This document shows positions 1 through 24,500 of a DNA stretch of 64,000 bases, in pieces. The DNA is from Archangium violaceum. GTDB taxonomy: Bacteria > Myxococcota > Myxococcia > Myxococcales > Myxococcaceae. The number at the start of each line of letters is the position of its first letter. Position 1 is the stretch's first letter. The stretch covers positions 7,174,001 to 7,238,000 of the forward strand of contig NZ_CP069396.1 of assembly GCF_016887565.1 (NCBI RefSeq), given 5' to 3'. Under the pieces are notes generated by a model. That model saw only the letters and a program-made list of their open reading frames with translations, was not told where the DNA came from and ran no database searches. The position numbers were made by a program, and so were the translations under genes.

Positions 1-3000
1 TTCAGGAAGCGGAGCAACTGTCGGGCGAGCATCTGAAGCTGGGGGGCCTTCCGGGTCGAGAGCACGATGACCTGCTCCGCCGCTCCGGCCGGCGTCTGCG
101 CGGGCCGCCCCGCGTCGACATACTCCTCCAGGATGGCGTGGGCGTTCATGCCGCCGAAGCCATAGTTGTGGATTCCGACACGCCGCGGGACGCGCTGACC
201 GCCCTGGTACTTCGCGGGCCATGCCTCGGTCCTGTCCAGCACTCGCACCGGAAGCTCGCCGTCCGCCTCGTCCCAGTTCAGCTCCTGGAGGTTCAGGATC
301 CGGGTGAGCGTGTTGTTCCTGAGCGACAGGACGGACTTGATGAGTCCGACGACGCCCGACGCGGCGCCCAGGTGCCCCAGGTTGCCCTTGATCGTTCCCA
401 ACCCGATGGCGCCGGACGGACGCGCCGAGAACACGTGCTGATAGGTCTTCAGCTCCATGACGTCGGTGAGCTGATTGCCCGTGCCCTGCGCCTCGATGTA
501 GTCGATGTCTCCCGGCTGGAGACGCGCATCGCGGAGGGCTTCCCGGATGACCTCCTGGTGGGAGGTGGCGTTCGGCGCCATCAGGTACACGCCCTTGCCG
601 CCGTGCTCGACCGCGACGCCCTTGATGACGCCGTAGATCGTGTCGTTGTCCCGGATGGCGGAGGAGAGCCGCTTGAGCAGGACCAGGCCCATACCTTCGC
701 CATTCAGATGGCCGGAGGCCCCGCGGTCGAAGGGCCGGGTGACTGGCTCGTTCGTGAGCATCCCCAGCTTCCTGTTGAGGATGAACAGGCTGGGGGTCAG
801 CAGGACGTTGACGCCGCCGACGAAGGCCAGCTCGATGCTCCCGTGCCGGAGCTGCTCGACGGCGAGACTCAGCGCCGTGAACGAGCCGGAGCAGGCCGTG
901 TCGAGCACCATGCTGGGGCCCCGCCACGAGAAGTAGCGGGAGACCCTGTTGGCCAGCATCGAGTGGGCATTTCCGGTGTTCATGTAGCCGTCGAGGGCAT
1001 GCCCGGAGTCCTTGAGCAGCTCCACGTAGTCCTGCTTCTCGACGCCGACGAACAGGCCGACGCGCTTGTTCTGCAAGCGGGCGCGCGTGTAGCCCGCGTT
1101 CTCCATCGTCTCCCAGGTGACCTCCAACAGCATCCGGTGCTGGGGGTCCATGAAGGTCGCTTCGCGCGGCGAGATGTCGAAGTGCAACGGATCGAAGCGA
1201 TCGATGCCCTCCAGGAACGCGCCATGGGTGCAATCCGTCTTGTTCTCCTCCTTCTGCGGATCGCCCCAGTAGTCCTGCCAGCGCCAGCGCGAGTCCGGCA
1301 CCTCCGAGATGGAAGACCGCTCGTCGACGAGGTTGCGCCAGAACTCGCTCACGCTCGCGGCGCCCGGAAACCGGCCTCCGATGCCGATGATGGCGATGGC
1401 CTCGTCGCTCTCCGGGCTCTCCGTGCCCGAGCTGACGGAGTACGTGGGCGCACGAGCCTCGCTCCGGGCTTCCGTGGCCACGACCTCGACCTTCGCCACC
1501 ACCGGCTGCGCGGTCGTCTCCACCTCGTTCAGCCCGAAGTGCTCGCGCAGCTCCTTCCCGTACTTCCTGGCGAGGAAGCCCACCAACGCGCCGAGCGTCG
1601 GATGCTCCAGGAAGGTGGAAGGCGCCAGCTTGATGAACCGGAACTGGCGCGAGAGCTCGTTGGAGAAGCCGGTCAGGGTGATCGAATCGAACCCGTACTC
1701 ACTCAGGTTCTTCTCCGGCTCGATCTCACCCGGCTCGACCCTCAGGACCTCGGCGGTCATGGCCGCCAGCGTCCTGGCCAACGACTCCTCGACCTTCCTC
1801 GCCGCCCCGGGGCCGGTCACGGCCTCGGGCTTCGCGGCCGCCGCCAGCAACCCAGGCCCGGCCTCGTCGCGGGACTTCTTCTTGATGTACTGAGCCTCCC
1901 AATCCAGGACGAGGGGGTTCGCGCGCTGCTCGAGGGCGCCGTCGTACTCGGCGGAGGTGATCTCGCCCCGGCGCAGGAGGGACTCGAGGTTCTCCCGGCC
2001 CAGCCCCGCCAGGATGCGGTGCTTCAAGAGCTTGAGCGCGGGATCCGACTGGTCCGTCTTGACGAACGACTTCTGCCGGAAGACCTCCAGCTGCTTCCTG
2101 GCGTCCTCGTTGGCGTGAGAGCCGCGCAGCCGGTGGATCATCGGGAAGGCGGGGTAGTTCAGCAGCCGCCAGAACTCGCGGAACTCCTGCTCCGGCCTGG
2201 GGAACAAGCCCAGCTTCAGCCCGAAGAGCACGCTCGAGACGGGCGCCATGATGAGGTAGTAGTCGTCGGTGATCCGGTGTGAGAGCTCCTCGTCACTGAG
2301 CACGTACTTGCCGGACATGATCTGCGCGTACCAGCGCGCCACCATCTCCATGAAGTAGAACGAGCCGGTGAACGCGATGGGCAGCACCGACGTATTCACG
2401 AGGCTGGGGTTCTTTCCGTAGAAGATCCCCATCGCGAACTCCTTCGCGACCGAGATGTTCTGGAGGTAGCCGTAGCGGACGTCCTCCGAGCCGAAGTTCT
2501 TGTAGCCCGTGGCGAAGACGACGACATCCACCTCGACTTCCGACGAAGCGGCGTCCGAGAAGACACAGCCCTTCTCGTAGAAGCGCTCCAGATCGCCGCG
2601 AGGCTGGACCTTTCCTTCCGCGACCAGCTTCACGATCCCATCGTTGATGTGGACGATGGGGTTGCGGCGGAACTCCTGCTCACTCGGGAGGATGCCGCTG
2701 CGCTGATACAGCTCGAAATACTCCGGCATCGACTGCCGGAGACGCTCGATGATGTTGTAGCGGTTCTCGGGGATCAGGAGGCTCGCGGGCGACTGGCAGT
2801 CATTGGGGACGAAGCCCACCATTCGCGGCAGGATGAGCTTCTTGGAGCGGCGGCTCCAATAGACCTCCGCCGCGACCTCCGCGGCCTCCTCGGCGATGTC
2901 CATCGCGCTGACACCGCTGCCGATGACCAGGACCCGCTTCCCCCGGAAGCTCGAGTTGTCGAAATACTGCCCCGAGTGGAGGATCTCGCCCTTGAAGTGC

Positions 3001-5402
3001 TCCAGGCCCTTCTTCTTGGGGAAGTAGGGCTGCCAGAAGCTCCCCTGGCACAGGGCAACGCCATCGAACTCCTCCTGGCGCTCCTCGCCGTTCCTCCGGA
3101 TCGTGACGGTCCACCTGTCTCCCACCTGGGAGACGGAGACGACCTCGCTCTCGTATTGGATGAGCTCGGTGAGGTGGAACGCCTCGGCGTACCTGCGAAG
3201 GTACGCCATCACCTCATCGACACTGTAGAACGTGCTCTTGATGTCCTGAGGGAGGAAGTCCGAGAAGATGCTCGTGAACATCGAGCTCTGGAAGCGCGTC
3301 TTCTTGTACGCGCCGGCCGTCTTCTCCTTGTTGAGGACCCACAGCCCGCCCATCGTCCGTTGCTTCTCGAAGATGACCGGCTGATGCCCCTCCTCCAGGA
3401 GGGACTTGGCCATCACGAGGCCAGAGGGGCCGGCGCCGACCACGCAGATCCGCTTCGGGCGCTTCTCCCCCGTGGAGCGGGGAGCCTTGCTCTCGACGAT
3501 CTCGACCCTGGGTGCGCTCGCCGGCTCTGACTGCTGCTGGCGGGGCGCGCTGGCCCAGCAGGGGACCTTCTTGAAGGCGTACGCCGGCAGGGTGACCTTC
3601 TCGACGTCCGTGCCCTCGTGCAGGGTCGCCCAGTCCACCGGCGCGCCGCTGACCCAGGCCGCGGCGGTTCCGTCGAGCTCCTTCGTGTCCAGGCCTCGAC
3701 CTGGGCTCACCGGATCCTTCACGACGCCGGTATGGACACCGGGCAGTTCCTTCGACGCCCCCAGGAACGCGCCCGCCTTCTCGACGAACTCGGCCACGGA
3801 GCCGACGACGAACGCGGCCCGGTGCGCCAGCGCATCACGACCGGTCTGAAGCGTGAAGGCGACGTTGGCGAGCGGAACACCGGGTTCCCGCTCCAGGTGG
3901 TCACGCAGGGCCGCGACATGCTCGCGCAGTTGGAGCTGCGTCTTCCCCGAGACGACGAGCAGTTGCCGCCTCGCCGGAGGGCTGACCACCGGCCGGGACG
4001 AAGGCACGTACTCCTCGAGCAACAGGTGCGCGTTGTTTCCCCCGGACCCGTAGGAATGGAGACCCGCCAACCGAGGCCGCTGTCCCCGCGTCCACGGCTC
4101 GGTGCTCGTCATCAACCGGCAGGGCCGCCCTTCCAGGTCGAGATAGGGATTGACTCGCTCCAGGCCGAGGATCTTATGGACCTTCTGGGTCTGGAAGGTC
4201 CGGACGATCTTGAGCACCGCGCCCAGCGCCGAGGCACACTCCATGTGCCCGAGCATCGGCTTGAGCGTGCTGATGCGGCAGGAGCCCGGCTCGATGACGT
4301 TGCCCTGGGCCGATGCCAGCTGCTCCAGGGCCCTGTTGCAAGCCTCCCACTCTGAGATGTCGCCGACCTGGTTCCCCATCCCCTGGGCTTCGATGTACCC
4401 GATGTCACGAGCATCGACGCCGGCCTGCTCGTAGCACCGCTTGATGACCTCGGTATGCGCCTCGACGTTGGGAGCCGCGATCGACATGCCCCCCTGGCCG
4501 TTGTAGTTGACGGCGCTGCTCCGGATCAGGGCGTGGATGCGATCGTGGTCCCGCTGCGCCTTCGACAGCGGCTTGAGCACGAGACTGATGACACCTTCGG
4601 CACGGATGTAACCCTCGGCGTCCTCACCGAAAGACTTCACGGAGTCCTTCGAGCTGAGGACCTTCATCCGAGAGAGGCCGATCAGCGGCTCGGGCCGGAG
4701 GATGATGCGTGCGGCCCCGACGATGGCGAGGTCGATCTCCCGGTTGTGGATGGCGGTCATGGCCCGGTGGATCGCCACCGCGCCGCTGGCACACATCGTG
4801 TTGACGATCTCGCTCGGCCCACGCAGGTCGAAGAAGTACGAGAGCCGGTTGGCCACCATGCTGGGGTGGTGGTTGAACCCATTGACGCCCAGGTCCACCC
4901 GCGCGGCCCTGAGGTGATGCAGGTACTCGTTGTCCTCGAGGGCGACATACACACCCGTGCGGCTCTTCTTCAGACCCGACGGGGCGCAGCCGGCGTTCTC
5001 GAGCGACTGATACACGGACATCAGCAGCAGGCGGAGCTGTGGATCCAGGAGGTCCGCCTCGTTGGGCAGGAAGCCGAAGAAGGCCGGATCGAAGCTCTTG
5101 ATGTCGGGAATGAACGCGCCCCACCGGGTGCGCATCTTCGAGGCATCCTCGCCCGTCGCATCGTAGAACTCCCGCCAATCGAACCGATCGGCGGGGATCT
5201 CCGTGATGACGGAGCGATCCTCGTCCAGGTAGCGCCAGAAGTCCTGAACGCCCATGGCCTGCGGGAGATACCCATGCAGGCCGACGATGGCGATCGGCTC
5301 GGGCCGCGCCTCCTCGTGGACGCTCTTCCTGGACAGCGCGAGCTGCTTCTGCAGCAGCTTCAGCTTCTCCCGCTCCACGCCAACAGTCGTCATCTGGCTC
5401 AT
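1..5402 (-). CDS. Trans-AT polyketide synthase, partial (KS - flavin monooxygenase - ACP - KS...)
   Basis: About 1,800 N-terminal residues are visible; the C-terminus lies beyond the window edge. The start is fixed by an ATGA overlap with the stop of the preceding monooxygenase gene. Domains: a charged N-terminal helix (1-25, possible docking element); KS (about 28-450) with Cys in NTMCASG near 203, Gln in place of the first catalytic His (EAQGMGN, near 340) and His kept in LGHME; a linker ending LPAYAFKKVPCW; a flavin monooxygenase (about 640-1105); an ACP with Ser in YGFDSIT near 1237; a second KS from about 1335 with LDTACSGS and again Gln in EAQGTGN. There is no acyltransferase. The KS-monooxygenase-ACP layout matches the Baeyer-Villiger type oxygen-inserting modules (OocK-like) known from trans-AT pathways. 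Both KSs are predicted to pass the chain on without elongation. It is the last PKS of the operon in view. Confidence 0.93.
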   Translation of the reverse strand, partial: MSQMTTVGVEREKLKLLQKQLALSRKSVHEEARPEPIAIVGLHGYLPQAMGVQDFWRYLDEDRSVITEIPADRFDWREFYDATGEDASKMRTRWGAFIPDIKSFDPAFFGFLPNEADLLDPQLRLLLMSVYQSLENAGCAPSGLKKSRTGVYVALEDNEYLHHLRAARVDLGVNGFNHHPSMVANRLSYFFDLRGPSEIVNTMCASGAVAIHRAMTAIHNREIDLAIVGAARIILRPEPLIGLSRMKVLSSKDSVKSFGEDAEGYIRAEGVISLVLKPLSKAQRDHDRIHALIRSSAVNYNGQGGMSIAAPNVEAHTEVIKRCYEQAGVDARDIGYIEAQGMGNQVGDISEWEACNRALEQLASAQGNVIEPGSCRISTLKPMLGHMECASALGAVLKIVRTFQTQKVHKILGLERVNPYLDLEGRPCRLMTSTEPWTRGQRPRLAGLHSYGSGGNNAHLLLEEYVPSSRPVVSPPARRQLLVVSGKTQLQLREHVAALRDHLEREPGVPLANVAFTLQTGRDALAHRAAFVVGSVAEFVEKAGAFLGASKELPGVHTGVVKDPVSPGRGLDTKELDGTAAAWVSGAPVDWATLHEGTDVEKVTLPAYAFKKVPCWASAPRQQQSEPASAPRVEIVESKAPRSTGEKRPKRICVVGAGPSGLVMAKSLLEEGHQPVIFEKQRTMGGLWVLNKEKTAGAYKKTRFQSSMFTSIFSDFLPQDIKSTFYSVDEVMAYLRRYAEAFHLTELIQYESEVVSVSQVGDRWTVTIRRNGEERQEEFDGVALCQGSFWQPYFPKKKGLEHFKGEILHSGQYFDNSSFRGKRVLVIGSGVSAMDIAEEAAEVAAEVYWSRRSKKLILPRMVGFVPNDCQSPASLLIPENRYNIIERLRQSMPEYFELYQRSGILPSEQEFRRNPIVHINDGIVKLVAEGKVQPRGDLERFYEKGCVFSDAASSEVEVDVVVFATGYKNFGSEDVRYGYLQNISVAKEFAMGIFYGKNPSLVNTSVLPIAFTGSFYFMEMVARWYAQIMSGKYVLSDEELSHRITDDYYLIMAPVSSVLFGLKLGLFPRPEQEFREFWRLLNYPAFPMIHRLRGSHANEDARKQLEVFRQKSFVKTDQSDPALKLLKHRILAGLGRENLESLLRRGEITSAEYDGALEQRANPLVLDWEAQYIKKKSRDEAGPGLLAAAAKPEAVTGPGAARKVEESLARTLAAMTAEVLRVEPGEIEPEKNLSEYGFDSITLTGFSNELSRQFRFIKLAPSTFLEHPTLGALVGFLARKYGKELREHFGLNEVETTAQPVVAKVEVVATEARSEARAPTYSVSSGTESPESDEAIAIIGIGGRFPGAASVSEFWRNLVDERSSISEVPDSRWRWQDYWGDPQKEENKTDCTHGAFLEGIDRFDPLHFDISPREATFMDPQHRMLLEVTWETMENAGYTRARLQNKRVGLFVGVEKQDYVELLKDSGHALDGYMNTGNAHSMLANRVSRYFSWRGPSMVLDTACSGSFTALSLAVEQLRHGSIELAFVGGVNVLLTPSLFILNRKLGMLTNEPVTRPFDRGASGHLNGEGMGLVLLKRLSSAIRDNDTIYGVIKGVAVEHGGKGVYLMAPNATSHQEVIREALRDARLQPGDIDYIEAQGTGNQLTDVMELKTYQHVFSARPSGAIGLGTIKGNLGHLGAASGVVGLIKSVLSLRNNTLTRILNLQELNWDEADGELPVRVLDRTEAWPAKYQGGQRVPRRVGIHNYGFGGMNAHAILEEYVDAGRPAQTPAGAAEQVIVLSTRKAPQLQMLARQLLRFL
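2090..3485 (-). other. Flavin-dependent monooxygenase domain inside the PKS
   Basis: This is a domain of the PKS at 1-5402, about residues 640-1105. It shows an FAD Rossmann motif (VVGAGPSGL), the FMO/Baeyer-Villiger fingerprint FKGEILHSGQYF, a second NADPH Rossmann site (VIGSGVSAMD) and the late FATGYK motif. Free FMO-type enzymes oxidise soft nucleophiles or insert oxygen next to ketones. Placed between a KS and an ACP, the domain should act on the ACP-bound beta-keto chain, giving an internal ester. That role is inferred from position and from known OocK-type modules. Confidence 0.85.
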
Positions 5403-6541
5403 TCCAGGCCCCCCATCCGGGCCAGCCCTTCGCGCGCCAGGGCCGTCTTCAGCCGATGGAGAAACGGCAGGGACTCCATGACCAGTGAGTAATCGATGCC
5501 GAAGTCCATCAGACACGCAATCTCCGTCACGCCAACCGAGGCCGCCTTCTTGACCACACTCATCACGTCATCCACCGACCCGAACATGGCGCCTGTCTTG
5601 AAATAGCGCTCGTACGAGTATTCGACGATCTTGTTCAGTTCCCTCTCGGAAGGCCGCTCGGACTCCGGAAGGCTCTGGATGTGCCCCGTCAACGCGCTCT
5701 TGATGTAGTTGAAGAAGGGCTCCCGGACGGCGGCCTCGACCCGCTTCAGGTTCTCGTGCACCAGGGTGTGGAGCATGAGGGTGACCTTGCCGCCCTCGGG
5801 CGGAAGCCCCGCCTCCTGGCGCGCCGTCTTGTAGAGCCGGATCTTCCTGCCGAGCTCATCCAGATCAATCCCTTGCAGCATCGTCAGGACGTTGTAGCCC
5901 TCGTGGCCGGCGTACGTGTACGTCTCATCGAGCTTGGTGATGGCCAGCCAGACGTTCAGCTCCTTCTGGATGGGTTGGGGGTACACGCGGATCTCGGTGT
6001 CCTTGCCCTTCCCGTTCGGGAAGGACATGGGCTCCCCACGCCACAAGCGGCGGACGGTGCCGAGCCGCTCCTTCCAGACCTCCTTGAGGTTCGCGAACGT
6101 GCCGGGCGACAGGATGAAGTCGTTCGGATTCCAGCCACTGGCGAACCCCAGGTCGACGCGTCCGTTGGACAGATGGTCGACCATGGCCCAGGACTCGACG
6201 ACCTCGGCGGGATGATGCAGCGGCAGCACGACCGAGCCCGAGCGCAGACGGATGTGCTTCGTCCTGACCGCCAGCGCCGACGCGAGCACCGCGGGGTTCG
6301 GGTAGATGCCGCCGAAGGGATGGAAATGGCGCTCGGGCATCCACACCGCCTCGAAGCCATGCCGGTCCGCGAAGTCCGCGATGTCGAAGATGAGCTTGTA
6401 CCGATTGTCGAGCCCCTGATTCGCATCGGAGAAGAAGATGAAGCTCAGCTCGATCGGAGACGGATGCTGGCTCTGGGGCCGTGCCGGAAATGACAGGATT
6501 TCCGCCAGACGCTCGTTGATACGTGTGTCGTTCGAAGCCAT
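5399..6541 (-). CDS. Luciferase-like FMN-dependent monooxygenase (MupA type)
   Basis: A 380-residue free-standing flavin monooxygenase of the bacterial-luciferase TIM-barrel superfamily, in the subgroup attached to PKS/NRPS pathways (MupA/Atu3671-like). The body carries the family-typical stretches FSDANQGLDNRYKLI, AVWMPERHFHPFGG, LRSGSVVLPLHHPAEVVE and DLGFASGWNPNDF, and ends in a helical tail. It lies 6 bp after the stop of PKS B, and its own stop overlaps the ATG of PKS C, so the three genes are translationally coupled. It should hydroxylate or otherwise oxidise the PKS-bound intermediate using FMNH2 and O2. Relatives often alpha-hydroxylate ACP-bound chains, but the position cannot be read from sequence. 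The flavin reductase it needs is not seen nearby. Confidence 0.9.
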   Translation of the reverse strand: MASNDTRINERLAEILSFPARPQSQHPSPIELSFIFFSDANQGLDNRYKLIFDIADFADRHGFEAVWMPERHFHPFGGIYPNPAVLASALAVRTKHIRLRSGSVVLPLHHPAEVVESWAMVDHLSNGRVDLGFASGWNPNDFILSPGTFANLKEVWKERLGTVRRLWRGEPMSFPNGKGKDTEIRVYPQPIQKELNVWLAITKLDETYTYAGHEGYNVLTMLQGIDLDELGRKIRLYKTARQEAGLPPEGGKVTLMLHTLVHENLKRVEAAVREPFFNYIKSALTGHIQSLPESERPSERELNKIVEYSYERYFKTGAMFGSVDDVMSVVKKAASVGVTEIACLMDFGIDYSLVMESLPFLHRLKTALAREGLARMGGLE

Positions 6542-9500: not shown

Positions 9501-12500
9501 ACCAGCGACACCTTGTCGCCTTCGCCCATCACGCCGTCGATGGCAATGGTCGTGTAGACATGCCTCGGGTTCTCGGTGGAGACGGCTCGGGCCAGACCTG
9601 GAATGGATTCGAATTCCTGGCGCGGGTCGGAGGGCATGGTCGCGTGGACGAGATACCCGCGGACGTCCCGGTCCCAGGCAACGCGCAGGAGGCTCGTGGC
9701 GAGGGAGACGAACGAACGGACGCTCTCTTCGGCGCAGAAGAACAGCACGAGGTCGGGCAGCGCATCGTTGTCACGGAGGACGCGGAACACGTCCCCGAGC
9801 TCGCTGTCCGGGCTGAAACCGGGGCTCGAGCCCTCCGCGCTCCACTCGACGACCCGCCCGTTCCTGAGTGCCAGGGACGCCACGGAGAACGGCGTTGCGC
9901 AGTCGCTCCCTTGCAGCGCTTCGTCGATCTGGCGGAAGACGCGCCGCGCCGCGCGGTAGTCGTCCCGCGCGTCGTGCACGATCAGCACCCGCTTTCCCTT
10001 CTGGTGACGAATCCTCTCGAGCCAGTCGACGCCCTGCGTGGGCAGGGGGCTGAGCAGCCAGCCCTCCGCCAGGAACAGCGCTGGCTGCTCCTCGGCGATC
10101 GGGAGCCGCTCGGGCACTGGCACCTGCACGGGCACGGGCACGGAGACCGTCGGTTGGGCGTCCTCTCGCGAGACCGGGACCCAGTAACGGTCCTGGGCGA
10201 AGGGATAGGTCGGCAGGGAGACCCGTCGGCGCACGTGCTCCTGGTGGAGCTGGTCCCAGTCGATGACCAGTCCCCGGACCCAGAGCTCGGCCAGCTTCTC
10301 GAGCTTGCCCTTCTCGATCCACCGCTGGATGCCTTGCTTCAGGTCCGCATCCGAGCTCAGCAGGTCGATGCTGCCCTTTTCATCGCCCGTCTGCCCCAGG
10401 TAGCAGTTCTCGATCTCGGTCTCGCCCGCGACGAATGCGGCCAGCCGCTCCTTCAACTGGCGCATGTCGTGCACGACCATCGCGAGGCGATGCTTGAGAG
10501 CCTCCCTGCCTGTCTGGAGGGTGTAGGCGACGTCTCCCAGCTCGAGAGCAGCGCCCTCGTCAGACGCCTCACTCCGCCTCAGGAAGTCCAGCACCTTCCG
10601 CGCGTAGGCACGCAGGCGCTCCTCGTTGCGCGCCGAGAGCACCACCAGCTGCGGCCTCCCGTCCTCCTCCTCCGCCCTCTCCGGCCTCTGCTCGATGTAC
10701 TCCTCGATGATGACGTGCGCGTTGGAGCCTCCCGCTCCGAACGAGCTGATTCCCGCCACCCTCGGCCTCTCCCTTCCCTCCACCACCGGCCTCTTCCACT
10801 CCCCCAGCTCCCTCTGCACACGGAACGGCGTCTTCGTGAAGTCGATGTTCGGGTTGAGCTCCTGCGAGTGGATGGACGGCACCAGCTGCCCGTACTTGAG
10901 TTGCAGCAGCACCTTCGTCACTCCCGCCACTCCCGCCGCCGACTCGCAGTGCCCTATGTTCGACTTCACAGACCCTATGGCGCACAGCGGCCCTCCCTCT
11001 CCCCTGCCCTCGTACGCCTTCGTCAGCCCGCTTATCTCTATCGGGTCTCCCAGGCTCGTCCCCGTCCCGTGCGCCTCCACGTAGCTGAGCGTCCTCACGT
11101 CCACCTGCGCCTGCTCCAGCGCCTGGCGGATGACCGCCGTCTGCGCCTGCGGGTTGGGCACCGTGTACCCGTTCGTCTTCCCTCCGTGGTTGATGGCCGT
11201 CGCCTTGATGACCCCGTAGATGTGGTCTCCGTCCCTCACCGCGTCTTCCAGCGGCTTGAGCACGACGCACCCCACTCCCTCTCCGGGCACGTACCCGTCC
11301 CCTCCCCGCCCGAAGCTCTCGCACTTGCCGTGCGTCGAGATGAACTTGCCCTGGCTGAGCAGGATGTACTTGTTGGGGTGGATGCTCACGTTCACCCCTC
11401 CGGCGATGGCCATGCGGCACTGTCCCTGCCGCAGGCTCTGACACGCCAGGTGGATGGTCGTCAGCGACGAGGAGCACATCGTATCCACGGCCATGCTCGG
11501 GCCATGGAAGTTGCAGAAGTAGGAGACACGGTTGGCGATGCCCGAGGGGTTGCCCGTCAGTCCCAGCGGGTTGCCCTTGAGCAGCTCCTGCACTCCGTAG
11601 AACTGGTACTCCTCGTACATCACCCCCACGTACACGCCGACGTTCTTCTGCGGCGCGGAGGCGCTGTCCGCCAGACGCTCACGGGTGTAGCCAGCGTCCT
11701 CCATCGCCTCCCACGCGCACTGCAGGAACAGCCGCTCCTGCGGATCCATCACCTCCGCTTCACGTGGCGAGATGTTGAAGAACAGCGGGTCGAACTTGTC
11801 GACGTCGTCGATGAATCCTCCCCACTTGCCGTGGATCTTCCCTTCCTTGCTCTTGTCCAGGTCGAAGTAGGGGCGGTAGTCCCAGCGCTCCCGGGGAACC
11901 TCCGTGACGCAGTCGCGTCCGGCCTTCAGGTTGTCCCAGAAGGCCGCCAGGTCCCTGGCCTGGGGATAGCGCCCACTCACTCCGATGATGGCGATATCCA
12001 GCGCTCCTCCTCGCTGCACCTCCGGCGTCTTCGCCGCCAACCCACCGAGGCGGCGGCGCGGGCGACCCGCCTGACGCGACAGGCCCACGGGCTCACGCTT
12101 CTTCACCACTGGAGCGACGGGCTGTGCATTCGCGGTCGCGCCGATCCCCAGGAGCGACATCAACTTCTCCCGGTAGCTCTCGACGAAGTAGGAGCCCAGC
12201 TCGTCCAGGGTCTGGAACTCGAAGAACAGGGTCTTGGACAGGGGACCGAAGACCTTCTCGAGCTCGTTGCTCAGGCTCATCACCATCACGGAGTCGATGC
12301 CGTACTTCTCCAGCGGCGCCTTCTCATCGATCCGATGGCTCGGCAGCTTCAGCACCTGTGAGAGCTGCCGCTTGAGGTACTCGATGGTCTTTTCCTTCAG
12401 CATGTCTTCTGCCCCCGCGACTTCCGTCGTGGGCGGTGGAGTCACGGGAACGGGCTCCTCGATGCGGACGTCTTCAACGGCCGCGGCAGAGGAGGCAGAG

Positions 12501-15500
12501 GACAACAGGGTTTCCTGAAGACGGCTGAGCTCGCCTTGAACGGCGATGAGGTGGGGGTGAGGCAGGGCCATGGCCACGTCGAAGGCACGCAGTCCTATCT
12601 CCGTCTCCATCGGCACCATTCCGCTGGTGCGCTCCATCGCCTCCCTGGCCTGCTCCTCCATCCTCATTCCCCCCTCCCTCCACAGCGGCCAGCCCACCGA
12701 CACCGTCCTGCCCTTCCTCTTCCCCTCCCTCACCTGCCCCTGCCGGTACTCCGCGTACGCGTCCAGGAACGCATTGGCTCCCGCGTAGTCCGCCTGCCCC
12801 GCGCTCCCCATCGCCCCCGCCAACGACGAGAAGAGCACCACGAAGTCCAGCTCCTCCTCCCTCGTCGCTTCCTCCAGGTTCAGCAGCCCCTTCACCTTCG
12901 GCGCGAACACCGCCTCTATCTGCCCCTCTTCCTTCTTCACCACGTACGCGTCCTGAATCACACCCGCGCTGTGGATGACTCCCTTCACCCCTCCGTACTC
13001 CGCCCTCAACTTCTCCACCGCTCCCGCCACCGCCCCCCTGTCCCCCAGGTCCACCGCCACGTACGTGAACGTCGCGTGCGGCTGCTGCCTCCTCAGCTCC
13101 TCGAGCGCCGCCGTCTTCGTCTCGTCCAGCGCCGAGCGCCCGCTGAGCACCACCTTCACGCCCTTCGTCTGGCCCAGGTGCCGGGCGAAGTGCAGCCCCA
13201 GCCCTCCCATCCCTCCCGTAATCCAGTACACCCCTCCCGGCTTCACGTACTGCCCCAGTTCCTCCACCTGGGCTCCGGGGCCCACCTCCACCAGCTGCCG
13301 CTCCTCCCTCCTCCCGTCCTCCCCGTAGCGCACCTCCACCGCACCTGCCGCCGCCCCCAGCTCCTGCTCGATGAGCTGGCGCAGCCTTTCCGTGTCCGCC
13401 CTCTCCAGCCCCGCCACCGCCACCAGCCGCCCTTGCAGCTTCGGGTTCTCCCATCCCGCCGTCTTCAGCAACCCCGCCACGGGTGCGTAGCGGAACCACT
13501 GCTCGTCCCACGGCACCACCACCACCACCTTCTGCGTGCGCTTGGGCCGGCCCTGCAGCAGCTCCTTCACCCTCTGGAATACCCAGCGGAACGTGCCCTC
13601 CGTCTCCTCGCTCTGCTCGGCTCCCGCGAACCCAGGCACCGCCTCCACCCTCACGTCCAGTGCTGCTTCCAGCCCCGCCCTGACCCTCTCCTCCCCTCCC
13701 GCCAGCAGCACCACCGCCTCCGCCTCCCCAGAGGACGCAGCGCTCGCCTCCAGCCTGCTCTCCTTCCACTGGCTCGTGGCGTACAGCACCTCGTTCTTTC
13801 GCCCTCCCTCCGGCCTCGGCTCCGCCGCCTTGCGCAGCGTCAGCCCCTGGATCGCCACGCACACCTCTCCCGCCTCGCTCACCAGGTCGATGTCGTAGCG
13901 GGCAATCCCCCTCTCTCCCTTGCCGCTGCTCCTCCGCGCGTACGCATGACTCCTGGCCGGAGTCCGCTGGAACACCTCCACCGCCTCCACCGCGAACGGC
14001 AGCCAGGCCCCTCCCTCACCCATCCCCAGCCCCGCGGACGTCTGCAACGCCGCGTCCATCACGCTCGGGTGCAGCACGTACTGCTCCGCCTCCCCGCTGA
14101 TGTCCTCCGGCAACTGGATGCTCGCCAGCGCCTCCGTCCCATTGAAGCGAAGCTCCTGAATCGTCTGGAACGTCGCGCCGTACTCCAACCCCTGCTGCCT
14201 CAGCCCCCGGTAGAACTCCTCCTTCGCCAACACCGAGTCGCAGCGGCCCTTCACTCCCGTGAGGTCCACCCGCCTCGCCTGCCGGACTCCTTCACCCTCC
14301 GCCCCCTCGCCCAACACGAGCCGGCCCTGGCTGTGCAGCTGCTCCTCGAGCTGCGCGTCTCCTTCGCCCGAGGCACCACTCCGGACCTCGAAGCCGACCT
14401 CCGTGTCCGTCTCGGGATACAGACGGATGGTCACCTCCTGTGCCTTGCCGTTGACCACCACCGGTTGCGCCCACACGAGGTCCTTCAGGCTGAGCACCTG
14501 ACTCCTGCCTGCCACGGCTCCGGCCGCACGTGCCATCTCCAGGTATCCCACCGCCGGCAGCACCCGCTGCCCCCGCACCCGGTGGTCCTCCAGGAAGAAC
14601 TCCTCTCCCGTGAACACCGACGTGAACTGCTGATCCCACAGGTCGGAGGTGTTCTCGCCCAGGAGCGGATGCAGCTTCGACGGCCGCGCCGTCACCAGCG
14701 TCCCCGTGGTCTGCGGCACCCAGTACCGCTCCTCCGCGAACGGATAGGTCGGCAGCGACAGGCGGCGCGGCTTCTGCTCCCCGTACAGCAGGGTCCAATC
14801 GACCGCCATCCCGCGGGCCCAGAGCTCCGCGAGCTTCGCGAGCTTTCCCTTCGCCGCCCACGTGTTGATGAGCTCCTTGAAGTCTCCATCCGAGCCCAAG
14901 GACATCACGCCATCCTTGTTCTCGTTGACCCTGCCCTGGAAGCAGTCCTCGATATCCCTCTCACCCGAGGCGAACGCCGCCAACCTGGCCTCGAGCTCGA
15001 GCGGCTCCCGAACCAGGAACGCCACGCGATGCTCCATCGCCTCGCGCCCAACCTGGAGGGTGTAGGCCAGCTCCTCGAGCCGGTATTCGGCGCGCTTGAC
15101 GAAATCGAGCATCCTCCGCGCGTAGGCACGCAGGCGCTCCTCGTTGCGCGCCGAGAGCACCACCAGCTGCGGCCTCCCGTCCTCCTCCTCCTCCGCCCTC
15201 TCCGGCCTCTGCTCGATGTACTCCTCGATGATGACGTGCGCGTTGGAGCCTCCCGCTCCGAACGAGCTGATTCCCGCCACCCTCGGCCTCTCCCTTCCCT
15301 CCACCACCGGCCTCTTCCACTCCCCCAGCTCCCTCTGCACACGGAACGGCGTCTTCGTGAAGTCGATGTTCGGGTTGAGCTCCTGCGAGTGGATGGACGG
15401 CACCAGCTGCCCGTACTTGAGTTGCAGCAGCACCTTCGTCACTCCCGCCACTCCCGCCGCCGACTCGCAGTGCCCTATGTTCGACTTCACAGACCCTATG

Positions 15501-18500
15501 GCGCACAGCGGCCCTCCCTCTCCCCTGCCCTCGTACGCCTTCGTCAGCCCGCTTATCTCTATCGGGTCTCCCAGGCTCGTCCCCGTCCCGTGCGCCTCCA
15601 CGTAGCTGAGCGTCCTCACGTCCACCTGCGCCTGCTCCAGCGCCTGGCGGATGACCGCCGTCTGCGCCTGCGGGTTGGGCACCGTGTACCCGTTCGTCTT
15701 CCCTCCGTGGTTGATGGCCGTCGCCTTGATGACCCCGTAGATGTGGTCTCCGTCCCTCACCGCGTCTTCCAGCGGCTTGAGCACGACGCACCCCACTCCC
15801 TCTCCGGGCACGTACCCGTCCCCTCCCCGCCCGAAGCTCTCGCACTTGCCGTGCGTCGAGATGAACTTGCCCTGGCTGAGCAGGATGTACTTGTTGGGGT
15901 GGATGCTCACGTTCACCCCTCCGGCGATGGCCATGCGGCACTGTCCCTGCCGCAGGCTCTGACACGCCAGGTGGATGGTCGTCAGCGACGAGGAGCACAT
16001 CGTATCCACGGCCATGCTCGGGCCATGGAAGTTGCAGAAGTAGGAGACACGGTTGGCGATGCCCGAGGGGTTGCCCGTCAGTCCCAGCGGGTTGCCCTTG
16101 AGCAGCTCCTGCACTCCGTAGAACTGGTACTCCTCGTACATCACCCCCACGTACACGCCGACGTTCTTCTGCGGCGCGGAGGCGCTGTCCGCCAGACGCT
16201 CACGGGTGTAGCCAGCGTCCTCCATCGCCTCCCACGCGCACTGCAGGAACAGCCGCTCCTGCGGATCCATCACCTCCGCTTCACGTGGCGAGATGTTGAA
16301 GAACAGCGGGTCGAACTTGTCGACGTCGTCGATGAATCCTCCCCACTTGCCGTGAATCTTGCCGCTCTTGCTCTTGTCCAGGTCGAAGTAGGGACGGTAG
16401 TCCCAGCGCTCCCGGGGAACCTCCGTGACGCAGTCGCGTCCGGCCTTCAAGTTGTCCCAGAAGGCCGCCAGGTCCCTGGCCTGGGGGTAACGCCCGCTCA
16501 CGCCGATGATGGCGATATCCAGTGCTCCTCCTCGCTGGACCGCTGGCGCCTTCGTCTCCGGCTCACTGAAGCGACGCGGACGCGACAGACCCGCCGCCTC
16601 GCTCTTCACCGGTGGCGGAACGGGCTGCGCATTCACGGTCGCGCTGATCCCCAGGAGCGACACCAGCTTCTCCCGGTGGTTCTCGACGAAGTACGACCCC
16701 AGTTGCTCCAGGGTCTGGAACTCGAAGAACAGGGTCTTGGACAGGGGGCCGAAGACCTTCTCGAGCTCGTTGCTCAGGTTCATCACCATCAAGGAATCGA
16801 TGCCGTACTTCTCCAACGGCGCCTTCTCATCGATTCGATGGCTCGGCAGCTTCAGCACCTGTGAGAGTTGCTTCTTGAGGTGCTCGAGGGTCTTCTCCTT
16901 CAACGTTTCCTCGAACCCCGCGCCTACCGTCACGCGGGATGGATTCGCCGGGAGAGACTCCTCGGAGCGGATGTCTTCCGTGACGGCCTCGGCCGCGATG
17001 GAGGCCTGAGGGCGGACGTCATCCACGGCGGCATCAGCGGCCCCAGAGACGAGGATGGGCCTCACTCGTCCGATATCGCCTTGAACGACGACGAGGTGGG
17101 AGTACGGCAGGCCCATGGCCACGTCGAAGGCACGCAGTCCTATCTCCGTCTCCATCGGCACCATTCCGCTGGTGCGCTCCATCGCCTCCCTGGCCTGCTC
17201 CTCCATCCTCATTCCCCCCTCCTTCCACAGTGGCCAGCCCACCGACACCGTCCTGCCCTTCCTCTTCCCCTCCTTCACCTGCCCCTGCCGGTACTCCGCG
17301 TACGCGTCCAGGAACGCATTGGCTCCCGCGTAGTCCGCCTGCCCCGCGCTCCCCATCGCCCCCGCCAACGACGAGAAGAGCACCACGAAGTCCAGCTCCT
17401 CCTCCCTCGTCGCTTCCTCCAGGTTCAGCAGCCCCTTCACCTTCGGCGCGAACACCGCCTCTATCTGCCCCTCTTCCTTCTTCACCACGTACGCGTCCTG
17501 AATCACACCCGCGCTGTGGATGACTCCCTTCACCCCTCCGTACTCCGCCCTCAACTTCTCCACCGCTCCCGCCACCGCCCCCCTGTCCCCCAGGTCCACC
17601 GCCACGTACGTGAACGTCGCGTGCGGCTGCTGCCTCCTCAGCTCCTCGAGCGCCGCCGTCTTCGTCTCGTCCAGCGCCGAGCGCCCGCTGAGCACCACCT
17701 TCACGCCCTTCGTCTGGCCCAGGTGCCGGGCGAAGTGCAGCCCCAGCCCTCCCATCCCTCCCGTAATCCAGTACACCCCTCCCGGCTTCACGTACTGCCC
17801 CAGTTCCTCCACCTGGGCTCCGGGGCCCACCTCCACCAGCTGCCGCTCCTCCCTCCTCCCGTCCTCCCCGTAGCGCACCTCCACCGCACCTGCCGCCGCC
17901 CCCAGCTCCTGCTCGATGAGCTGGCGCAGCCTTTCCGTGTCCGCCCTCTCCAGCCCCGCCACCGCCACCAGCCGCCCTTGCAGCTTCGGGTTCTCCCATC
18001 CCGCCGTCTTCAGCAACCCCGCCACGGGTGCGTAGCGGAACCACTGCTCGTCCCACGGCACCACCACCACCACCTTCTGCGTGCGCTTGGGCCGGCCCTG
18101 CAGCAGCTCCTTCACCCTCTGGAATACCCAGCGGAACGTGCCCTCCGTCTCCTCGCTCTGCTCGGCTCCCGCGAACCCAGGCACCGCCTCCACCCTCACG
18201 TCCAGTGCTGCTTCCAGCCCCGCCCTGACCCTCTCCTCCCCTCCCGCCAGCAGCACCACCGCCTCCGCCTCCCCAGAGGACGCAGCGCTCGCCTCCAGCC
18301 TGCTCTCCTTCCACTGGCTCGTGGCGTACAGCACCTCGTTCTTTCGCCCTCCCTCCGGCCTCGGCTCCGCCGCCTTGCGCAGCGTCAGCCCCTGGATCGC
18401 CACGCACACCTCTCCCGCCTCGCTCACCAGGTCGATGTCGTAGCGGGCAATCCCCCTCTCTCCCTTGCCGCTGCTCCTCCGCGCGTACGCATGACTCCTG

Positions 18501-21500
18501 GCCGGAGTCCGCTGGAACACCTCCACCGCCTCCACCGCGAACGGCAGCCAGGCCCCTCCCTCACCCATCCCCAGCCCCGCGGACGTCTGCAACGCCGCGT
18601 CCATCACGCTCGGGTGCAGCACGTACTGCTCCGCCTCCCCGCTGATGTCCTCCGGCAACTGGATGCTCGCCAGCGCCTCCGTCCCATTGAAGCGAAGCTC
18701 CTGAATCGTCTGGAACGTCGCGCCGTACTCCAACCCCTGCTGCCTCAGCCCCCGGTAGAGCTCCTCCTTCGCCAACACCGAGTCGCAGCGGCCCTTCACT
18801 CCAGTGAGGTCCACCCGCCTCGCCTGCCGTGCTCCTTGACCGTCCGCGCCATTCAGCACGAGCCGGCCCTGGCTGTGCAGTTGCTCTTCCGATCCGCTCC
18901 GGACCTCGAAGCCAACCGCCGTGTCCGTCTCGGGACGCAGGCGGATGGTCACCGACCGTGACTGGCCATTGACCACCACCGGTTGCGCCCACACGACGTC
19001 CTTCAGGCTGGCCACCTGGCTCCCGCCCGCCACGGCTCCGGCCGCGCGCGCCATCTCCAGGTACCCCACCGCGGGCAATACCCTCTGCCCCCGCACCTGG
19101 TGGTCCTCCAGAAAGAACTCCTCTCCCGTGAACACCGACGTGAACTGCTGTGCGCGCAGATCGGACGTGTTCTCGCCCAGGAGTGGGTGCAGCTTCGACG
19201 GCCGCGCCGTCACCACCACGCCCGTGGCCTCCGGCACCCAGTACCGCTCCTCCGCGAACGGGTAGGTCGGCAGCGACAGGCGGCGCGGCTTCTCCTCCCC
19301 GTACAGCACGGCCCAATCGACCGCCCCACCTCGGACCCAGTGCTCCGCGAGCTTCCTGGCGTCCTTCTGCTCCATCCACGGCGCCGCGGAGGACTTCGGC
19401 ACCTCCGTCACGTGCCCGGAGTACCAGTTCTCCATGGCCCTGCCGGACACGAAGCCGGCCAGCGCGTCCCTCAGCTCGCGCAGTTCCCCGGCCTGGATCG
19501 CCAACCGATATTCCATCGGCTCACGTCCCACCTGCAGGGTGTAGGCGAGCTCCTCGAGCGAGCACCCGGCCTTCTCGACGAAGGCCAGAAGCTCCTGGGC
19601 ATAGACCCGCAGCCGCTCCTCGCTCTTCGCCGACAGCGGAACCACCGCGGGCCAGCTCTCGTCATGGAGACGGCGCGTGTGCTGATGGCCTGCCTCCTCG
19701 ACGTACTCCTCGAGAACGACGTGCGCGTTCACACCACCAAAACCGAAGCTGCTGACACCCGCCCGTCGCGGCAGGGTCGAGCCGTCCTCGTCCGTGAGCC
19801 GCTCCCACGGCTGTCGCTTCTGGACCAGGTAGAACGGGCTGTCGTCCAGCTTGATGTAGGGATTGACGTCGTCGCAGTGGAGGCTCCGCGGCAGCTCGCC
19901 ATGCTTCATCGCCAGGAGGACCTTCATGACGCCGGCGATTCCCGCGGCCAGCTCCAGGTGCCCGATGTTGCTCTTCACGCTGCCGAGCCCGCAGTGCTTC
20001 CCCGTCGGCTGGACGCCCCACTCCTCGTACAGGGCCTGGAAGGATTTCTTGAGTCCGTTGATCTCGACCGGATCACCCAGAGGCGTCCCGGTGCCGTGCG
20101 TCTCGATGTAGGTGACGGTCCTCGGGTCGATGCCCGCCTTGCGATAGGCGTCCTTGATCAGCTCCGCCTGGGCATTGGCGTTGGGGGCGGTGAGTGACTG
20201 TCCACGCCCGCCATGATTCTCGGAGGTCGCCTTGATGACCGCGTAGATGTGGTCATTGTCCCGCTTCGCATCCCTCAGCCGCTTCAGGAAGACGATGCCG
20301 GCACCTTCGCCCCGGACATAACCGTTCGCCGATTTCGAGAACGTCTTGCACCGGCCGTCCTCGCACAGCATCCCGGCCTTGTTGAAGCTGATGTGCACTT
20401 CCGGAGACAGCAGCGTATTGACGCCGCCCGCGAGCACCTGATCGCACTCGCCGTTCTTGAGGGCCTGGACGCCCCGGTGGATCGCGACGAGCGAGCTCGA
20501 GCAGGCGGTCTCGATCGGCTCGCTCGGCCCATGGAGGTTCAGGAGGTACGAGAGCCTGTTCGGCCCCACCGACGCCACGACGGCCGTGGCGGTGTGGCCC
20601 TCGATGGAGACGCTCGTATCCATCACGCGCTGCTGATAGCCCGTACTGGCGGTGCCAACGAAGAGCCCCGTCGCCGAACCGGACAACGCCTTGGGGGAAT
20701 AGCCCGCGTCCTCGATGGCCAGCCACACATGCTGCATCAAGAGGCGCTGCTGCGGATCCATCACCTCCGCTTCGCGCGGAGAGATGCCGAAGAAGAGGGG
20801 GTCGAAGCGATCGATGCCATCGATGAACCCACCCCACTTCACGTTCGACTTGTTCCGCTCCTTGCTCGGGTCGCCGTGGATCGCCTTCCAGTCCCAGCGA
20901 TCGCGGGGGATCTCCGAGATGCAGTCCCGGCCGTCCCGAAGGTTCGCCCAGAACGCATCCAGGTTCTTCGCCATCGGGAAGCGCCCGCTCACGCCGATGA
21001 TCGCGATGTCATCGTCCTCGCGGCTCGATGAAGCGAAGCGTTCGACGCCCGAGTGCCGGGGAGTGACGACTCCAGTCACCTCTCGCGGCGCCTCGTCCAC
21101 CACGAGCCGCTGTTCCGGCCGGCCGCCACCGCCAGGTCCGCCCGAGCCGGGGCCGCCGCCGGAGTCGTCCGGTCCCTCGTCGGGATCCCCGAACCGGGCC
21201 GCCACTTCCCGCTCGTGGGTCTCGAGCAGGAAGTCCCTGAACGACGCCAGCGTCGGATGCTCGAAGAAAATCGTGGGCGCCAGCTCGATATCGAGCTCTC
21301 TGCTGGTCCTGTTGGCCAGCTCCGTCAGCGTGATCGAATCCAGGCCATAGGCGCTCATCTCCTCGTCGGGGGAGATGTCTTCCGCCTTGAGCTTCAGGAT
21401 GTCACAGACACACCCCACCAGGAACCGCTCGGTGGCCTCGCCCAGGCGCTGCTTGTCGAGCGTCTTGCGCCCCGCTCCATCACGAGTCCGGGCTTCCGCC

Positions 21501-24500
21501 ACGGACACGTTTCGCGCCGCGAGCTCACCCCGAGACGGTGGCTCCGGGGTCACGGGCCGCTTCGCCTCGGCCTGCTCCCTGGGCACCTCCAATGCCCTCG
21601 TGACGAATCCCTTGATCGCCACGCACACGTTGCCGTCCGCGTCGACGACATCGATGTCGTGCTTCTGCACGCTGTCGCCCGGCTTCGTGCCGGGGCTGTA
21701 ACGGACGTAGGCGTACCCGCTCTTCGGCGTGGGGCCATGGAGCTCCACCGAGCCGATGGCGAATGGGAGTTGCGGACGCGAGGGCGAGTCGAACAACCCG
21801 CGGCTCATCGTCAGGCCGATCGTGGCCTGCAGCGCGGCATCCATGATGCTCGGATCGAGACCGAACCCGGCCACGTCCGAGCTCCTGCTCGCCGGCAGGC
21901 GCACGGTGGCGAGCGCCTCGTCACGCCCGATGGAGATCTTCGCGACGGCCTGGAAGGCCGCTCCATAGTTCAGGCCCTGCTCCCGGAACTTCTCGTAGAT
22001 CCGCGCGGCCTCGATGGTGAACAGGCAGCGGTTCTCGATGGCGGAGATCTCGATCCGGCGCTTCTCCGTCGCGGGACGGGTGCCGGTCACGATCTTGCCC
22101 TGGCTGTGCACGGCACGCTCCGCGTCCCGGGCTCCCGCTCCGGGCGCGGAGCTGATCTCGTACCGGAGCTCACGGCCCTGAGGAGTCAGCCGGATCGTGA
22201 CCTCCTTCGGCGTATCACCCACCTCGATCGGGCGAGACCACACGACGTTCTCGATCGCCAGGATGTCCTTCCTGCCAGCGATCGAGGCCGCGGCTCTCGC
22301 CATCTCCAGGTAGGCGACTCCAGGGAGCACCCGCCCCTGCTGGACCCGGTGATCGCTCAGGAAGAACTCCTGACCATCGAACACCGACCGGAACCGTGGT
22401 TGCTCGGAATCGGAGACGTCCTCCTGGACGAGCGGATGCCGGGGTGCCCTGGCAGGTGCCGGCTCGCGAACCACACCAGGATCCTGGAGAGCGACGGCTG
22501 GAGCCGAGAACCAGTACCGCTCCTTCGAGAAGGGATACGTCGGCAGCGAGATCTTCCTCGGCTCGAGGCCGGCATGGAGCAGCCGCCAGTCGATATCGAG
22601 TCCCTTGATCCAGAGCTCCGCGATCTTCTCGAGCTGACCGGCCTTCACCCAGCGGGTCACCGACTCCACGAACTCCGACTCGGAGGGGAAGAACTCCGTG
22701 CTCTCCACCTCGTCCCGGGCGCGCCCCTGGAAGCAGGAGTCCGGGGTTGCCTCGCCCCGAGCGAGTCGAGCGAGCTTCGCCTTCAGCTCCGCCACATCAC
22801 GCACCACGAAGGCGGCGCGCTGAGACATCGCCTGACGGCCAACCTGGAGCGTGTAGGACACATCCGTGAGGTTCAGCCCCTGGCTCGACTCCACGAAGGC
22901 CAGCAACTTCTGGGCATACGCCCTGAGCCGATCCTCGTTCTTGGCGGACAGGGTGATCAGCACCGGGGAGTTGGAGAGCTCGAGCGTCCTGCGCCGGGCC
23001 TCGGTCTCCGGTGCGACATACTCCTCGAGCACGACGTGGCTGTTGTTGCCCGTCATGCCGAAGGAGCTGACACCAGCCAGTCGCGGCTTGCCGTCGCGCC
23101 GCTCCCAGTCCATGAGCTCGGTGTTGATGAAGAACGGCGAATCATCGAGCCGGATATAGGGATTCAACGCCTCGAAGTTCGGCATCCGGGGAATCTTGCG
23201 ATTCTTCAGCATCAGGACGACCTTGATCAGGGACGCCAGACCCGCCGCCCCCTCCAGATGTCCGATGTGGGCCTTGGTCGAGCCGATCGCGCAGAAACCG
23301 GTCTTCGACGTGTACGGCTTCATGGCCGCCTTGAGGGCGTTGATCTCGATCGGATCGCCCAGCGGGGTTCCCGTGCCGTGAGCCTCGATGTAGCTGAGGT
23401 CCTCGGGGTTGATGCCCGCGTTCTTCCAGGCCTCCCGGAGCAGCTTCGTCTGGAGCTCGGGCCTGGGAGCGTAGGGATTGTTGGACCGTCCGACGTGGTT
23501 GATCGCCGTTCCCTTGATGACGGCGTGGATGCGGTCCCCGTCCCGGATCGCTGCGGCCAGGGGCTTGAGCAGCACCGAGACGACGCCCTCACCGGGCACG
23601 TATCCATCCGCCTTCTTGTCGAACGAGTGGCAGTGGCCGGTGGGCGACAGGGCCTGAAGCCGCGAGAAGTACACGTAGTGCAGGGGGCTGAGCAGCGCGT
23701 TCACGCCGGCCACGAGCGCCTGGTCGCACTCTCCGTTCCTGAGCGCCTGGCAGGCCAGGTGCAGCGCGGTCAGTGACGATGCACAGGCGTTGTCGAGTGG
23801 GATCGATCCGCCCTGCAGATCGAACATGTACGAGACGGTGCCCGACAGCGAGGACATCGCCGAGCTGTGGGCCTGATAATCCACCATGGAGACATGGGAC
23901 CGGACGATCTCGTCCCAGTACTCCTGGAAGCAGCAGCCGACATACACGCCCGTCTTGCTGCCGATGATGCTCCGGATGGCGCCCGCGTCCTCCATCGTCT
24001 CCTGGACGGACTGCAGCAGCATCCGCAGCTGCGGATCCATCCACTCGGCGAGCCGCGGCGAGATGCCGAAGAAGACGGGATCGAACTTGTCGACGTCCTT
24101 GAGGAAGCTGCCCCACTTCGAATACGTCTTGTTGACCGCGTTCCGCTCCGTGTCGAACCACGGCCGGTGGTCCCAGTGCGACGCGGGGATCTCCTCGATC
24201 AGATCATCCGCCCGCTCCAGGTGGTGCCAGAACTCGGACAGGTTCTCGGACTGGGCGAGATACCCGCTCATGCCGATGATGGCGATCTCGTTCGAGGCCG
24301 GGAGCACCTCGTTCCGCGACGGAGCGGGCGGCTCGGTCACGGAGACCGTGTGCGAGCGCACCCCGTCCGAGCTCCTGGCCGGTGCAGCGCTGGCGACGCC
24401 GCGCCCGGAGGCCTGGAAGTAGCTCTTGAACCGGGCACCACCCGACTCGGCGAAGTGCTTCGCCAGCGCGGTGATGTTCTGATGCTCGAAGAGCAGGGTC

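Follow-up and report, generated by a model that had tools for sequence, protein, structure and literature searches.

We analysed a window of 64,000 nucleotides of Archangium violaceum (positions 7174001-7238000 of a single-contig, 13.2-Mb genome) and focused on two adjacent DH-KR-ACP-KS units (dehydratase, ketoreductase, acyl carrier protein and ketosynthase domains) within one polyketide synthase (PKS) gene, PKS B. The reading we favour, with a probability of roughly 0.87, is an old duplication of these units followed by recent gene conversion of DH-KR and KS at GRINS (genetic repeats of intense nucleotide skews). An initial annotation of this DNA had described the repeat and overlooked the intense skew, which points to this known kind of element; its observation is confirmed, its interpretation was partly right, and the setting is one reported as uncommon for GRINS. 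The domain order of PKS B according to Pfam is DH-ACP-ACP-KS-DH-ACP-KS1-[DH-KR-ACP-KS2]-[DH-KR-ACP-KS3]-KR-ACP, the last KR appearing as two matched stretches. The gene and the parts of the two bracketed units are as follows (window coordinates):

26032-6548, minus strand: PKS B open frame, 6494 amino acids; Pfam domains, no acyltransferase (AT)
18760-19324, minus strand: start of unit 1, LPTYPF region and DH N-part; about 89.5% nucleotide identity to unit 2, dS (synonymous changes per site) 0.22, skewed
17275-18759, minus strand: DH-KR identical tract of unit 1; 1485 bp, GC skew +0.38 and TA skew -0.17 on the coding strand
16520-17101, minus strand: unit 1 pre-ACP linker, ACP and ACP-KS linker; unconverted, G:C at fourfold sites 47:42
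15115-16354, minus strand: KS2 identical tract; 15183-16354 exact (1172 bp), a 3-bp indel, then identity to 15115
14807-15114, minus strand: post-KS2 linker, taken as flanking subdomain; 49% and 44% amino acid identity to other post-KS linkers
14215-14806, minus strand: start of unit 2, LPTYPF region and DH N-part; about 89.5% nucleotide identity to unit 1, skewed
12730-14214, minus strand: DH-KR identical tract of unit 2; 1485 bp, exact match to the unit 1 tract
11999-12556, minus strand: unit 2 pre-ACP linker, ACP and ACP-KS linker; unconverted, G:C at fourfold sites 43:43
10597-11833, minus strand: KS3 identical tract; 10662-11833 exact (1172 bp), past a 3-bp indel identity to 10597
10268-10596, minus strand: post-KS3 linker, taken as flanking subdomain; diverged

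Between the two units, 189 of the 4185 nucleotides in the alignment are different, with an uneven spread. Nucleotide identity along the unit is 89.5% in the DH N-part (dS 0.225), 100% in the DH-KR tract, 96.6% in the KR tail, 67.8% in the pre-ACP linker, 92.0% in the ACP (dS 0.212), 78.8% in the ACP-KS linker, 95.1% in the KS N-part (dS 0.196) and 100% in the KS tract; dN, the nonsynonymous counterpart, is 0.05 in the ACP and 0.02 in the KS N-part. The observed identical runs measure 1485 and 1237 aligned bp (gap columns omitted), against at most 317 bp for the longest and 201 bp for the second-longest run when the 189 differences were reshuffled 10000 times; the reshuffled runs never came near the observed ones, which excludes even divergence and bears out the mosaic described in the initial annotation. 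All 61 synonymous changes fall within 357 of the 1269 comparable codons, and the two longest runs free of synonymous change span 509 and 403 comparable codons, so that protein constraint as the sole cause of the identity is ruled out. The KS and DH-KR blocks had been called nearly identical, and their tracts are indeed exact over 1172 and 1485 bp; the offsets of 4521 bp (KS) and 4545 bp (DH-KR) reproduce the proposed period of about 4.52-4.55 kb, and the repeated unit is, as proposed, of module size, from the processing domains through the next KS. Two details needed correction: the KS block, largely identical, had been drawn wider than its identical tract (identity is 95% over its first 75 codons), and the similarity of about 90% given for ACP and linkers fits the ACP but is too high for the linkers.

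The converted tracts stand out by their strand skew. On the coding strand the GC/TA skew is +0.38/-0.17 in the DH-KR tracts and +0.18/-0.20 in the KS tracts, the GC skew being +0.03 to +0.05 over PKS A (another PKS gene of the window) and over the remainder of PKS B on either side. The G:C counts at fourfold sites are 214:39 in DH-KR, 85:21 in the C-half of the KS tract and 48:35 in its N-half, compared with 47:42 in the ACP region and 515:489 in upstream PKS B; as the skew is present at fourfold sites, it is not a matter of protein composition alone (Fisher test of DH-KR against the fourfold sites of the upstream gene, 1.6e-23, codons not being fully independent). Protein composition shifts as well: within the tract, Gly, Ala, Val, Glu and Gln are enriched, while Ser, Asp, Asn, His, Ile and Pro are depleted. 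For 56 DH-KR windows (DH flank included) the mean fourfold GC skew is 0.62, and 12 KS C-half windows lie at 0.52-0.68; the highest value among 443 windows from PKS A, B and C beyond the two units is 0.33. The skew drops to zero about 300 bp past the KR and declines slowly on the DH side, where the DH N-part has fourfold G:C counts of 66:28 and 66:29 in the two copies, with 61 G/G against 21 C/C shared sites. This part is diverged (dS 0.22) yet skewed in both copies, indicating that the skew is older than the last conversion. A C-to-G change as the source of divergence between the copies was considered and rejected: of the 60 differences in the DH flank, 33 are C/T or A/G and 14 are C/G, so that no process still generating skew is apparent. 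The idea that skew in general climbs steadily along the gene was likewise discarded, as this holds for the window tracts and not for an AT pair of G003, a genome of the same genus.

Using a GRINS caller with thresholds adapted from PMC9899208 (self-blastn taking the place of all-pairs alignment), four of the four segments were flagged as GRINS (|GC| skew 0.16-0.38, |TA| skew 0.16-0.21, two values just over threshold). They measure 1500, 1830, 1830 and 2220 bp at 96-99% identity, where GRINS are expected to have at least 500 bp, typically about 1 kb, and more than 80-90% identity to another region of the same PKS; gene conversion, a further property of these elements, is indicated in the window by the internal mosaic and in a related cluster by a four-sequence site test (below). 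Measured against the 25% wording of PMC10394414, the DH-KR GC skew of 0.38 is above, as are the KS C-half values (GC 0.26-0.27, TA 0.31), and the whole KS tract (0.18/0.20) is below. Like the tracts described here, GRINS, as described in PMC10394414 and PMC9899208, are near-identical stretches of about 1-1.5 kb within one PKS gene, with intense GC and TA skew, and are thought to undergo gene conversion; they are also credited with diversifying assembly lines of close kin. Unlike the usual GRINS, those of PKS B lie in a putative trans-AT PKS of a myxobacterium and on DH-KR and KS; also unlike GRINS, the skew here overruns the DH-KR tract on its 5' side and leaves part of the KS tract uncovered. 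GRINS are described as scarcer in PKSs of the trans-AT type and as rare among proteobacteria, and are argued to be ill tolerated in trans-AT lines because the KS domains are substrate-specific (PMC10394414). Homogenised domains within one cluster are also known from concerted PKS domain evolution (rapamycin family; mycolactone), and PMC4256081 gives no cluster-specific branching for the trans-AT pederin and psymberin systems, in contrast to the recent homogenisation within one trans-AT gene seen here. A literature search returned no title naming a myxobacterial trans-AT GRINS and nothing on trans-AT PKSs together with myxobacteria and gene conversion, most subscription journals lying outside its coverage.

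The assignment of PKS B to the trans-AT type is based on its domain content. The AT domain (PF00698) had no Pfam match in the four pieces of PKS B or in the window part of PKS C; the whole genome gave 28 AT matches, none inside the window, and two AT domains were found in one 1118-amino-acid frame (contig 7165935-7167722) about 6 kb beyond it, which is taken to be a member of the cluster. Since modules without AT and a stand-alone AT in the cluster are among the features that define this type, the PKS B cluster is taken to be a trans-AT polyketide synthase.

Skew and self-identity were surveyed in 21 blocks (12 of the same genome, including two background blocks, and 9 of relatives), and later in 12 more from relatives; the blocks were picked by KS or module matches, not randomly, with cis- or trans-AT status checked only where Pfam was run, and loci L101-L105 are outside all analyses. 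High-identity regions were present in 4 of the 12 own-genome blocks (window cluster included) and in 2 of the relatives' 21 (genomes G096 and G003). At 58 DH-KR places (both copies included) the mean fourfold skew is 0.07, the two window copies reaching 0.71 and the next 0.29; at 193 KS C-halves the mean is 0.01, the window copies (0.62 and 0.62) being followed by 0.55 and 0.44 in another cluster of the same genome. These low means speak against the skew as a domain property. In the 21 blocks, |GC skew| exceeds 0.3 in 48% of the 300-bp windows at 97-100% self-identity, in 7% of those at 90-97% and in 0.2-3% below (the windows overlap, and the high-identity ones derive from few clusters). Other skewed pairs include one on the AT domains of cis-AT modules in the same genome (5.87 and 5.88 Mb; 97% identical, GC skew 0.46-0.47), the AT pair of G003 (96-97%, skew 0.35-0.36), and a KR pair of G096 in modules without a Pfam AT (95%, GC skew 0.24-0.25), of which one segment exceeds both skew thresholds and the other falls narrowly short on TA (0.14). 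Repeats of nonribosomal peptide synthetase (NRPS) type (condensation and AMP-binding frames) in three own-genome blocks are 86-97% identical, with a mean |GC| skew of 0.06-0.27, below the DH-KR and AT pairs and within the range of the window KS pair (0.16-0.19); one short segment of this type exceeds both skew thresholds. A hybrid of NRPS and PKS lies at 6.08 Mb, in a block whose repeats were not all assigned to domains.

Conversion was seen directly in the KR-pair cluster of G096. This cluster is common to G090 (two species, one genus, same family) at 92-96% DNA identity; the G090 blocks in the 12-block survey lacked the second copy, and the pair was seen in a separate alignment. Across five 150-column bins (columns 1500 to 2250), all inside the skewed KR tract, the paralogues are 0.93-0.99 alike and the orthologues 0.85-0.93; beyond these bins, the edge bin at 1350 aside, the orthologues are closer. 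The four-sequence test gave 36 paralogue-grouping versus 2 orthologue-grouping sites in the KR tract, 9 versus 897 in columns 0-1300 and 2250-4477, and 2 versus 5 in the edge columns 1300-1500. This shows that the skewed KR tract of an AT-less PKS was converted after the species split.

The order of events in PKS B can be read from the synonymous changes. The nearly equal dS of the DH N-part, ACP and KS N-part makes the duplication older than the last exchange, and the zero substitutions in the two tracts argue for later overwriting; one old duplication, then recent overwriting of only these two tracts, is thus highly probable. The initial annotation had proposed a recent tandem duplication with later gene conversion, of which the later conversion stands and the recent duplication does not, the flanking dS being about 0.2 in three segments. 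The conserved diverged parts of the two units are each other's closest matches: the DH N-parts at 83% amino acid identity (next 43-47%), the ACPs at 88% (next 52-53%) and the KS N-parts at 99% (next 70%). No outside donor for these three parts was found among the fetched PKS loci searched (21 + 12 blocks without L100, the database that also served the DH-KR and KS place survey). The post-KS linker between the units is 49% identical in amino acids to the linker after unit 2 and 44% to that before unit 1, so that a one-step unequal crossing-over followed by even drift is not demonstrated; this linker may have been replaced or be of other origin.

We propose the following mechanism. Two adjacent units would descend from a shared duplication, with about 0.2 synonymous changes per site since; one would have served as template, the other being overwritten across the DH-KR didomain and, separately, across the greater part of the KS, too recently for any substitution. 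The overwritten places would be GRINS, that is, in-gene PKS repeats with G over C and A over T on the coding strand, and the exchange would proceed by RecA-type homologous recombination within the gene. The 3' tract ends would lie near the collapse of homology (linkers of 68-79%), and the ACP may have been spared as an island between these linkers with an aligned core of only 225 bp. Both units keep HxxxGxxxxP (DH), the KS cysteine, HGTGT, the KR glycine motif and the ACP serine, which we take to be the signatures of functional domains; with these motifs kept, both units are predicted to reduce and dehydrate, and should give two successive double bonds. With the same chemistry (keto-reduction, dehydration) upstream, the two KS domains should meet similar chains, so that copying of KS and DH-KR would leave the product unchanged and should be near neutral.

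Several results weigh against conversion at GRINS in this cluster. The DH N-part is skewed without recent conversion and the N-half of the KS tract is converted without skew, and the DH-KR TA skew of 0.17, above the 0.15 threshold, is below the 25% wording of PMC10394414. Among the strongly GC-skewed runs of the 21 blocks, 9 of 16 have no near-identical partner (|TA| skew 0.01-0.13, versus 0.12-0.26 in the other 7), so that GC skew alone does not imply conversion. The relatives searched gave no sister cluster: no close cluster by DNA search of 58 other relatives (best-scoring outside matches 68-70% over parts), none in 5 other genomes of the genus (E 1e-60), no close cluster in 146 others of the class (46% in amino acids for the best outside match of full length among the matches listed), none in 194 others of the phylum (E 1e-120), no close cluster in genome contigs scanned by exact peptide stretches (five loci at 35-55%), and a best place below 60% in 1073 plasmid records. 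Conversion in PKS B itself is consequently inferred from the internal mosaic alone.

The exact identity of the tracts could also be expected from a recent duplication of the whole unit, with rapid later divergence of ACP and linkers or their replacement by sequence of other origin, and the strong differences between the linkers, in protein too, would agree with this. We consider it very improbable: in the ACP and KS N-part dS (0.21 and 0.20) far exceeds dN, as expected of age under constraint and not of selection for change, dS is equal in three separated segments, and the diverged conserved pieces are closest to their sister copy, with no donor in the loci searched. An assembly or polishing artefact, by which differing copies were made identical or the copy number is wrong (a third copy may have collapsed), is very improbable. 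Tract identity is known from the assembled sequence, not from reads, and PMC7930024 warns of misassembly where module duplications are the sole difference; against this, the copies differ in ACP, linkers and indels, which requires at least two copies, the 3' edges lie near the KR and KS ends where homology drops, similar skewed and homogenised patterns occur at other loci and in other genomes, and the assembly is one contig.

There remains the explanation that the GC skew is ordinary for such domains or for codon usage and independent of conversion. The partnerless skewed runs, such as that at 18631-19561 of block 8290001, and the unskewed N-half of the converted KS tract are in its favour, but the window copies top both the DH-KR and the KS C-half places, whose means are close to zero, and skew above 0.3 is concentrated in the windows of highest self-identity; we therefore hold this explanation very unlikely.

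Beyond the old duplication with recent conversion at GRINS, a broader idea is put forward tentatively, as a possibility we hold rather doubtful: the intense purine skew of the coding strand may be an inherited mark that causes particular PKS domains to convert each other again and again, also in trans-AT systems, wherever two modules share the same chemistry, with ACPs and post-KS flanking subdomains excluded. The excess of shared G/G over C/C fourfold sites in the DH flank indicates that skew outlives a single conversion. If true, a KS and its flanking subdomain can become separated in nature. PMC7930024 and PMC11260071 describe, for trans-AT PKSs, recombination behind the KS and the LPTYPFx5W boundary. 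As in these exchange units (LPTYPFx5W; NAHVILEE behind the KS), the shared unit here begins shortly before LPTYPF, and similarity drops some 30-40 residues past the KS NAHVIIEE motif. Coevolution of the KS with its flanking subdomain is reported; unlike such exchange units, the KS here is mostly identical and the following linker 49% identical, so that the KS moved without its flanking subdomain. The locus suggests a condition under which trans-AT GRINS are tolerated, both KS domains standing behind the same DH-KR chemistry; it gives the order of events, duplication and skew first and the last conversion later; and a nearly single KS with two differing flanking subdomains offers an experiment of nature on what must be kept together within an exchange unit in the engineering of such enzymes.

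Further observations concern other loci and the neighbourhood of PKS B. The skewed stretch of block 8290001 (G000:C1, 18631-19561, minus strand) has a GC skew of 0.37 and a mean best self-identity of 0.74, overlaps a skewed KS C-half, and may be a GRINS with decayed identity. At 9751-17940 of L040 (about 7.124-7.132 Mb of the contig), NRPS modules in tandem (condensation, AMP-binding, PP-binding and a second condensation-like match) are 86-93% identical, unevenly, with a period of about 4.57 kb. In PKS C (minus strand, window part 3-5516), two KS domains flank a flavin monooxygenase domain (PF00743), which may belong to a module that inserts oxygen, and a separate luciferase-like monooxygenase gene (PF00296; 5399-6541, minus strand) lies between PKS B and PKS C. 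The frame at 38858-40078 (minus strand), which adjoins the start of PKS A and weakly resembles both dihydrolipoamide acyltransferases and PKS models in their carrier part, may encode a loading or starter protein. Short direct repeats of 76-82% identity were found at 24449-24676 / 24767-24994 and at 32051-32258 / 32369-32576 / 32753-32888; the former pair covers two ACPs that stand in tandem in PKS B, in a piece with three PP-binding matches, and the repeats of PKS A at 32051-32888 may be further tandem ACPs.

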